The notes under the pieces were generated by a model. The model was not told where the DNA came from, did not search any database, and worked only from the letters and a program-made list of their open reading frames with translations. This document shows positions 20,411 to 22,750 of a DNA stretch of 64,000 bases, in pieces (the stretch's first letter is position 1; each line of letters starts with the position of its first letter). Source of the stretch: Olleya namhaensis (lineage in GTDB: Bacteria; Bacteroidota; Bacteroidia; Flavobacteriales; Flavobacteriaceae); NCBI RefSeq assembly GCF_900114005.1, contig NZ_FORM01000007.1:124001-188000 (forward strand), written 5' to 3'. The position numbers were made by a program, and so were the translations under genes.

Positions 20411-21151
20411 ATGACAATTAAAAAAATTAGCACATTACACTTTTTAAAAAAAAACAATGTTTTTGATATTCTTTTTTTTGTTGCTTTTTTTACTGCTATA
20501 ACCATGAGTATTACCCTTACGGTTAAAAAAGACATGATTTACATTTCTCCGATAGTCATCTTAGCCATAATTACTAAATACTTGAGTGTTACCAAAAAGA
20601 AAGCCGACCCTTTATTTTTATTGGCATTACTTGCTTTTTTAGGCCTAAATATTTTAAGCTTTTATTCTTTTAATAAATACTTTAACGCTATCAGCCTTTT
20701 AACATCAGGTTATTTAATTTTATTTACACTAATACTTAAAAAGTATTTAGTAAAAAGTAGATTAAAATCTTTTCTATCGTTATCTGTTATTATTGGTTTT
20801 TTCCTTGTTGGTTATATTATATACGCGGTCGTGGATTTGCTAATAGGGCAAATCCCTAATTCAAATTTAATTTATGTGTTTATTTGCGCATTGTGTTTGT
20901 TTATTTATGCAGCCACATTTGCCATGATTTATATTAGTGATAACTACTCTAATGGTACTGTTTTATTAGCTTCAGGTGTTGCCACCATATTTAACTTAGG
21001 CTTATCCCCTATAAACGAGTACTTTTTATACAACCAGACGTTTACGGTTTTAATCCTTATTTGTCATTACATGTCACTTTATCTTTTTATGAGATTTATT
21101 TCAACAACTAAAGTAATAGACACTAAAGACGTCAAAAGAAAATATTTTTAA
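20411..21151 (+). CDS. Hypothetical polytopic membrane protein (246 aa)
   Basis: No family recognised. The product has about seven to eight hydrophobic helices (for example FDILFFVAFFTAITMSIT, ALLAFLGLNILSF, VIIGFFLVGYIIYAVVDLL) with very short loops and few charges, so it is an integral inner-membrane protein. The length and an N-terminal cytoplasmic Lys-rich stretch (MTIKKISTLHFLKKN) resemble small Bacteroidota membrane proteins of unknown role. It is a single gene with no clear terminator before the leader of the next gene. Confidence 0.65.
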   Translation: MTIKKISTLHFLKKNNVFDILFFVAFFTAITMSITLTVKKDMIYISPIVILAIITKYLSVTKKKADPLFLLALLAFLGLNILSFYSFNKYFNAISLLTSGYLILFTLILKKYLVKSRLKSFLSLSVIIGFFLVGYIIYAVVDLLIGQIPNSNLIYVFICALCLFIYAATFAMIYISDNYSNGTVLLASGVATIFNLGLSPINEYFLYNQTFTVLILICHYMSLYLFMRFISTTKVIDTKDVKRKYF

Positions 21152-21283: not shown

Positions 21284-21291
21284 TAAATTTG
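21284..21291 (+). promoter_or_regulatory. -7 box for the leader RNA of the NhaC-family gene
   Basis: TAAATTTG matches the Bacteroidota -7 consensus. Transcription would start near 21298, only a few bases before the SAM-I-like fold at 21306, leaving a leader of about 150 nt. Confidence 0.55.
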
Positions 21292-21303
21292 CCCACTTAA
21301 ATT

Positions 21304-21424
21304 AATTATCAAGAATCTCAATAAAAGGAGATAGCAACCTGCAATAACAAGCAAGGTGCTAAATAGATAAGCCATTAATTGGAACAAATGTTAACACATC
21401 TTTCTTATTACTTGCTTGTTTATT
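21304..21424 (+). ncRNA. SAM-I-like leader RNA (candidate minimal riboswitch) with alternative pairing
   Basis: P1-like arms TTATC (21306-21310) and GATAA (21366-21370) enclose a 5-bp P2-like hairpin (21315-21319 with 21328-21332) and a P3-like hairpin. The conserved-looking strings are TATCAAGAA after P1, AGCAACCTGC and GCAAGGTGCTAAAT; from memory these are SAM-I core segments of flavobacteria. The kink-turn/pseudoknot part of P2 and all of P4 are missing. A 10-base stretch at 21411-21420 is exactly complementary to 21346-21355, the 3' strand of P3, giving a mutually exclusive helix just before the gene. Ligand unproven; the variant could be degenerate. Confidence 0.5.
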
Positions 21425-21448
21425 CCTTTTTAAAATGAATAAAGTAAA

Positions 21449-22750
21449 ATGGCAAATTCAAAAAAAATCATTCCCAAATTATCAGCTTTAATACCACTAT
21501 TCGTATTTGTATTCACGTTTCTAGGCGCTGGTATTTATCAAAACGATTTTTATGCACTTCCAGCTCCAATAGCTGTAATAGTAGGAATTATCGTTGCTTT
21601 TTTAATATTTAGGCAGTCTATAAATTCTAAAATTAAAACGTTACTAAAAGGTTGTGGTGATGACAAAATACTTACCATGTGTTTAATCTATCTTTTAGCT
21701 GGTGCATTTGCAACTATTACCAAAGCGACAGGTAGTGTTGATGCAATTGTTAATTTAGGCCTTGATTTTATAGCGATTCAATACATTTATTTTGGTGTTT
21801 TTATAATCGCAGCCTTTTTATCTGTTTCTACCGGAACTTCCGTTGGTGCCATTGTCGCTTTAGCTCCAATAGTAATTGGTTTTGCGGATAAAAGCAGTGC
21901 TGATCTTGGTATTTTATGCGGTGCATTATTAGGAGGAAGTATGTTTGGAGACAACTTATCTGTAATCTCTGATACAACTATTGCTGCCACACAATCCTTA
22001 GGTGTTAAAATGAGTGACAAGTTTAAGCAAAACATAAAAATTGCGCTCCCTGCTGCCCTATTTACTATTGTCATATTGATCATACAAGGTTTAGGATTAG
22101 AATCTAACTTGGAAGACACTACCGTTTATAGTTATTCTGTAATCAAGATACTTCCCTACTTACTAGTTATCACACTTTCTATAATAGGTGTAAATGTATT
22201 TGTTACACTACTTTTAGGTGTAATTTCGGGAGGTCTTTTAGGGATTATTTATGGTGATTTCACATTAATTGAATCTACTAAAATTGCTTATACCGGCTTT
22301 ACTAGTATGACCGAAATTTTCTTACTTTCTTTATTAACAGGAGGTTTAGCTGCTTTAGTTTCTAAAAACGGAGGGATTGAATATATTCTAATTAAAATAA
22401 AAACATTAATCAAAAGTAAAACGTCAGCTCAGTTTGGTATTGCTGCATTAGTTAGCACCATTAACCTAGCAATTGCAAATAACACCGTATCCATTATTAT
22501 TGCTGGTCCAATTGCAAAAACAATAAATGACGAGTATGATTTAGACAACAAAAAAACAGCTTCAATATTGGATATTTTTGCCTGTATTACTCAAGGACTC
22601 TTACCTTATGGTGCTCAAGTATTAATGATTTTAAGCTTAACTAATGGAAAAATTAATTATTTAGATTTAGTGGCTAACACATGGTATCTATTGCTTTTAC
22701 TAATCTACACATTGCTATTTATCAGCTTTAAACCATTACGATTAAAGTAA
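21449..22750 (+). CDS. NhaC-family (Na+/H+ antiporter superfamily) transporter, possible methionine transporter
   Basis: The 433-residue protein has about eleven to twelve hydrophobic helices and NhaC motifs: a GGSMFGDNLSVISDTTIAA segment in the middle and NNTVSIIIAGPIAKTI near the C-terminus. NhaC relatives exchange Na+ for H+, or carry malate/lactate, and a subgroup called MetT is predicted to import methionine and is often SAM-riboswitch controlled. The SAM-I-like leader upstream favours the MetT reading; sequence alone does not decide. The start at 21449 is chosen because an ATG at 21435 is in another frame. Confidence 0.85.
   Translation: MANSKKIIPKLSALIPLFVFVFTFLGAGIYQNDFYALPAPIAVIVGIIVAFLIFRQSINSKIKTLLKGCGDDKILTMCLIYLLAGAFATITKATGSVDAIVNLGLDFIAIQYIYFGVFIIAAFLSVSTGTSVGAIVALAPIVIGFADKSSADLGILCGALLGGSMFGDNLSVISDTTIAATQSLGVKMSDKFKQNIKIALPAALFTIVILIIQGLGLESNLEDTTVYSYSVIKILPYLLVITLSIIGVNVFVTLLLGVISGGLLGIIYGDFTLIESTKIAYTGFTSMTEIFLLSLLTGGLAALVSKNGGIEYILIKIKTLIKSKTSAQFGIAALVSTINLAIANNTVSIIIAGPIAKTINDEYDLDNKKTASILDIFACITQGLLPYGAQVLMILSLTNGKINYLDLVANTWYLLLLLIYTLLFISFKPLRLK

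Follow-up and report, generated by a model that had tools for sequence, protein, structure and literature searches.

A SAM-I/IV riboswitch upstream of an NhaC-family transporter gene in Olleya namhaensis and a candidate translational expression platform acting through P2

The stretch of DNA analysed here (hereafter the window) comprises 64,000 nucleotides of a contig of Olleya namhaensis, and all features of the leader described below lie on its forward (+) strand. The locus is organized around a gene at 21449–22750 coding for an NhaC-family transporter of 433 amino acids, which stands as a lone gene behind a riboswitch. The family assignment follows from Pfam PF03553 (83.8 bits, cut-off 23); the score of the protein against TIGR00931 (86.6 bits) is under that model's cut-off of 370, and the product is therefore not named an NhaC antiporter equivalog. 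The upstream neighbour on the same strand (20411–21151) encodes an apparently membrane-bound protein of 246 amino acids that has no match in Pfam or NCBIfam. The leader itself opens with a −7 promoter box, TAAATTTG, at 21284–21291, which conforms to the flavobacterial promoter consensus TAnnTTTG (PMC9723704) typical of Bacteroidota. This box had already been pointed out in the initial annotation and occupies an alignment column common to 18 relatives; judging from its position, transcription is expected to start near 21297–21299.

The leader is an ordinary member of the known SAM-I/IV riboswitch family. The Rfam SAM-I/IV model RF01725 matches it over its full length at 21301–21398 (98 nt, model positions 1–99) with 58.4 bits against a gathering cut-off of 41.1, which corresponds to E = 4.9e-7 when the 64-kb window is searched and 2.4e-9 for a 321-nt stretch, and this is the one RF01725 match in the genome. 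As for the two other models that the initial annotation had proposed to run, SAM-I (RF00162) gave no match in the leader at E ≤ 0.001, its sole match in the genome being at C19:286289–286411, and SAM-IV (RF00634) gave none in a genome-wide search. Together with the PF03553 match, these results bear out the earlier proposal of a SAM-type aptamer ahead of an NhaC-family gene. They contradict the size of about 65 nt given for what was taken to be a remnant, and the complete RF01725 match rules out the accompanying choice between a decayed SAM-I switch and an undescribed compact variant. The absence of a P2 internal loop or kink-turn and of P4 had been correctly noticed, but was read as decay; SAM-I/IV variants are described as having no internal loop in P2 (PMC2864571; Weinberg et al. 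2010), and P4 is absent between P3 and P1 in the Rfam consensus, so that both features are normal for the class.

Within the aptamer, P1 is formed by UUAUC (21306–21310) and GAUAA (21366–21370), and P2 by AUCUC (21315–21319) and GAGAU (21328–21332), which close an 8-nt loop, L2 (AAUAAAAG, 21320–21327), the 3′ portion of which is shared with the alternative helix discussed below. Both helices lie where they had previously been drawn, as does P3, with GCAACCUGC at 21334–21342 and GCAAGGUGC at 21351–21359, the strands written as GCAACCTGC and GCAAGGTGC in the initial annotation. Two further elements had been overlooked. One, at 21372–21382, is the 3′ hairpin belonging to the SAM-I/IV consensus (P5 when numbered as in SAM-IV), in which CCA (21372–21374) faces UGG (21380–21382) and which is weak in the window because it has just 3 bp. 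The other is the loop-3/tail pseudoknot PK-2, in which UAACA of L3 (21345–21349) pairs with UGUUA of the tail (21389–21393). Comparison of 69 distinct nhaC leaders shows every one of the five PK-2 positions to be paired in at least 68 of them, double changes being among the variants, with UA (61), CG (6) and UG (1) at one end and AU (32), GU (21) and GC (15) at the other. P2 is kept in the same 69 leaders as five continuous pairs with no internal loop and covaries through UA/CG and CG/UA exchanges, and no variation is seen in P3 or in the four inner pairs of P1. Covariation among homologous leaders, the lack of which had been named as speaking against a riboswitch, is thus found in P2 and PK-2, and both the class of the aptamer and its pseudoknot are established.

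The leader shares with SAM-I/IV the full-length match, a P2 without internal loop, the 3′ hairpin and the L3-tail pseudoknot, and likewise lacks P4 between P3 and P1. The RF01725 model, however, stops short of the expression platform, and the platform of the leader, a tract available to P2, L2 and J2/3 or to the start codon, is outside the accessible description of that family. With SAM-I (RF00162) the leader has in common the ligand-binding core strings AAGA, GCAACC and GGUGC, but it has neither the P2 kink-turn nor P4 nor a match to the model. Classical SAM-I riboswitches switch by means of the P1 3′ strand. The 3′ hairpin and the L3-tail pseudoknot recur in SAM-IV (RF00634), where the latter is the PK-2 of the cryo-EM structure (PMC6890682); in contrast to SAM-IV, P2 of the leader consists of one short helix and PK-1 is not seen, and RF00634 is unmatched in the genome.

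The combination of this aptamer with an NhaC-family gene is widespread among relatives. RF01725 matches occur in 42 of 299 Flavobacteriaceae genomes, at 49 places in all, of which 18 (the window's own included) directly precede nhaC orthologs; the proteins at the other such places are 61–90% identical to that of the window. A protein-led search added leaders from Lacinutrix, Olleya, Zobellia, Maribacter, Formosa, Winogradskyella, Gelidibacter, Bizionia, Cellulophaga, Arenibacter, Leeuwenhoekiella and Aquimarina, with the aptamer core about 110–120 nt ahead of nhaC in nearly all close orthologs, and the core motif was absent at the distant NhaC proteins of Flammeovirga and Velocimicrobium. The genome from which the window comes carries two further SAM-sensing elements: a SAM-I riboswitch (G000:C19:286289–286411, minus strand, 73.7 bits) before a metY-like gene that is followed in an operon by metX-like, metB-like and metH-like genes, and a SAM-II riboswitch (C19, 289463–289521, plus strand, 62.4 bits) before a metK-like gene, all of these gene names being assigned from a reading of the sequences. 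Three classes of SAM-sensing riboswitch would accordingly serve one regulon, which nhaC would complete, and in that company its product is best read as a methionine-type transporter. The substrate is probably methionine or a related sulfur compound, the SAM riboswitch being the sole pointer to it; MetT-type NhaC transporters have been linked to methionine transport.

Between the aptamer and nhaC lies a tract, CUUGCUUGUUUAUUCCUUUU (21411–21430), that can pair either with L2, the P2 3′ strand and J2/3 or with the start region of the gene. The initial annotation had anticipated that a strand further downstream could enter an alternative helix, and such a strand is indeed present. In the window, the anti-aptamer helix consists of AAAAGGAG at 21323–21330 and UUCCUUUU at 21423–21430, and on the aptamer side it extends in relatives as far as AUAGCAA. 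The platform comparisons cover 63 leaders, with the Flavobacterium-type leaders (L113–L116), which have a different P2, left out. When the tract of each leader is hybridized with the L2/P2 3′ strand/J2-3 segment (AAAAGGAGAUAGCAAC), the mean RNAduplex energy is −15.0 kcal/mol, and swapping the leaders raises it to −13.5 kcal/mol (z −7.25, 0/5000 permutations as good), and many relatives have 15–17 uninterrupted pairs. Kinship was controlled for by thinning to phylogenetic clusters, which is less than a full covariation test, and leaves z at −5.5 (39 clusters), −4.9 (26) and −2.1 (15), while a control segment of the aptamer gives +0.7 after thinning. The P2 loop alone, which is free to vary, reaches a swap z of −5.0 for pairing with the tract, and its changes are matched in the tract of the same leader (GAAAGGAGA with UCUUCUUUC, ACAAGGAGA with UCUUCUUGU, UAAGAG with CUCUUA).

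The second partner of the tract is the beginning of nhaC. In both the local and the constrained fold of the window, the sequestered region spans 21443–21455, with AGUAAA (21443–21448) paired to UUUAUU (21419–21424) and GGCAA (21451–21455) to UUGCU (21412–21416). Pairing between the tract and the start-codon region has a swap z of −4.7 over the 63 leaders (−2.9, −2.8 and −3.2 after thinning) and extends to codon 2–3 of nhaC: leaders with GCA as second codon have UUGCUAU or UGCUAU in the tract, and several with ACA have UUGUUAU, UGUUAU or UGUCAU. From −8 to +3 relative to the start, the paired fraction is 0.66, versus 0.45 in shuffles. It has to be noted that the conservation of AUGGCA could reflect coding constraint. 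Taken at the level of sequence comparison, the tract has a conserved double complementarity, to the P2 region and to the start region, of which the window holds a weaker version than its relatives on both sides: the alternative helix has 8 pairs with a shuffle z of about −0.8 to −1.1, and the sequestor reaches just −6.8 kcal/mol (z −1.25). In addition, the segment made up of J3-1, the P1 3′ strand and the 3′ hairpin shows intermediate pairing with the downstream region (swap z −3.4), which is present in the free fold of the window and could form an extra part of the SAM-free state. A small hairpin, UUCUAU/AUAGAA or UCUG/CAGA, whose two strands change in step with each other, lies 0–5 nt upstream of the nhaC AUG in leaders of Cellulophaga and Winogradskyella (L069, L071, L074, L075 and relatives).

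The initial annotation had proposed a different alternative helix, in which the 5′ half of the tract, CTTGCTTGTT (21411–21420), pairs as an exact 10-base complement with AACAAGCAAG (21346–21355), i.e., with L3 plus the P3 3′ strand. The complement is exact in the window, as stated there, but it is not a conserved pairing in relatives: over the 63 leaders the mean shuffle z is −0.07 and the swap z −1.07 (−0.9, −1.1 and −0.6 in 39, 26 and 15 clusters), so that the 10-mer is ruled out as the general platform and appears, from these comparisons, as a lineage-specific feature. It is conceivable, though unlikely, that in the species of the window this P3 helix has replaced the P2-based helix as the antisequestor. 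Its 10 bp are worth −14.2 kcal/mol there (shuffle z −2.3), and it would also compete with the start-codon pairing, as 21412–21416 is common to both; against it stand its lack of conservation in relatives (median p about 0.15–0.29) and the folding energies of the window, where the forced P3 helix gives −22.5 kcal/mol versus −28.3 for the P2-based helix and −29.6 for the unconstrained fold, which itself includes the P2-based helix. The platform of the window may nevertheless rely partly on the P3-based helix.

The model that we favour, and consider likely, is that the SAM-I/IV riboswitch switches off translation of the NhaC-family transporter when SAM is abundant, by means of one tract just 5′ of nhaC that has two mutually exclusive partners. 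At low SAM, the tract would be base-paired to L2, the P2 3′ strand and J2/3, dismantling the aptamer and leaving the A-rich initiation site and the AUG open, so that the transporter would be made. With SAM bound, P1, P2, P3 and the loop-3/tail pseudoknot would form and set free the tract, which would then pair around the start codon, block initiation and turn the transporter off. Consistent with that, constrained folds, in which SAM and pseudoknot energies are left out, give an initiation region that is unpaired at 0.39 in the aptamer state versus 0.64 with the alternative helix, the aptamer state having the lower value in 58 of the 63 leaders; with the 3′ hairpin also forced in the window, the values are 0.31 versus 0.64, the AUG itself being 55% unpaired. 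Flavobacterium johnsoniae initiates translation independently of Shine-Dalgarno sites, with structure near the start and adenines upstream of it modulating initiation (PMC6847099); a switch that conceals the start codon agrees with this. From the constrained folds, this mode of initiation and a leader in which no terminator-like site was found, on at low SAM and off at high SAM is the most likely direction, and we infer that SAM is the ligand, translation the controlled step and methionine the substrate.

Many Firmicutes SAM-I switches act via transcription termination or attenuation, and the tract of the leader ends in a U-run, so that control by termination, or by Rho-dependent attenuation, instead of translation deserves consideration. 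We regard it as improbable: apart from the missing terminator-like site, the U-run lies within the pairing tract and is followed by A-rich sequence, and the conserved pairing extends into codon 2–3 of nhaC. A leader peptide is a very unlikely alternative. An AUG at 21388, within the pseudoknot tail, opens a short reading frame, MLTHLSYYLLVYSFLK (21388–21438), which stops just before nhaC and whose translation could be coupled to it; the AUG occurs in 52 leaders, and close relatives have a similar peptide, but it arises from pseudoknot sequence after an A-run, it is replaced by ACG in whole genera, others have early stops, and third-position changes are not in excess, which together lead us to reject the uORF. 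Drift of the aptamer to methionine, SAH or a related compound as ligand is hardly to be expected, given that the core fits the SAM-I/IV consensus and that P3 and the inner four P1 pairs are fixed in 69 leaders.

Returning to the SAM-I/IV family at large, 31 loci in Flavobacteriaceae form a second group that does not precede nhaC (L009, L011, L014, L026, L033, L034, L035, L040, L043, L046, L047 and others). Here, sequence 3′ of the aptamer is complementary to the P1 5′ strand plus J1/2 and covaries strongly with it, giving an anti-P1 helix with a duplex energy of −9.84 versus −6.49 for swapped loci (z −8.5, 0/5000), for example GUAUCAAGA with UCUUGAUAC and GUAUUCCGA with UCGGGAUAC, and at several loci the start-codon region then serves as a further partner of the same strand (AUACAAAU...AUUUGUAUG). 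By its sequences, this group looks like a translational switch using P1. It often adjoins mobile-element genes, its first genes being mostly of no known family: the neighbours at L011, L039, L043, L046 and L047 include a C-5 cytosine DNA methylase, Vsr endonuclease, a PAAR protein, VapE/DUF5906 helicase-like proteins and a phage-integrase-type protein. SAM sensing on mobile-element genes, or an altered ligand, is possible.

With regard to the nhaC leaders, the comparative sequence evidence argues strongly for a translational platform. Whether it amounts to a so far undescribed SAM-I/IV expression platform of the Flavobacteriaceae, in which a tract toggles between the P2 region and the start codon and so controls Kozak-like initiation by way of P2 and not P1 on mRNAs without Shine-Dalgarno sites, is in our estimate an even call. 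No description of it was found in the literature searched, which does not extend to most subscription papers, the SAM-I/IV crystal-structure paper among them, and its novelty is accordingly provisional. What may be new is the comparative evidence on riboswitch action in bacteria whose initiation does not depend on Shine-Dalgarno sites, and it provides a concrete, testable model in which a Bacteroidota riboswitch would gate translation by masking the AUG together with the A-rich stretch 5′ of it. For these marine bacteria, it would mean that an NhaC-family transporter joins the SAM regulon, beside the SAM-I and SAM-II elements.
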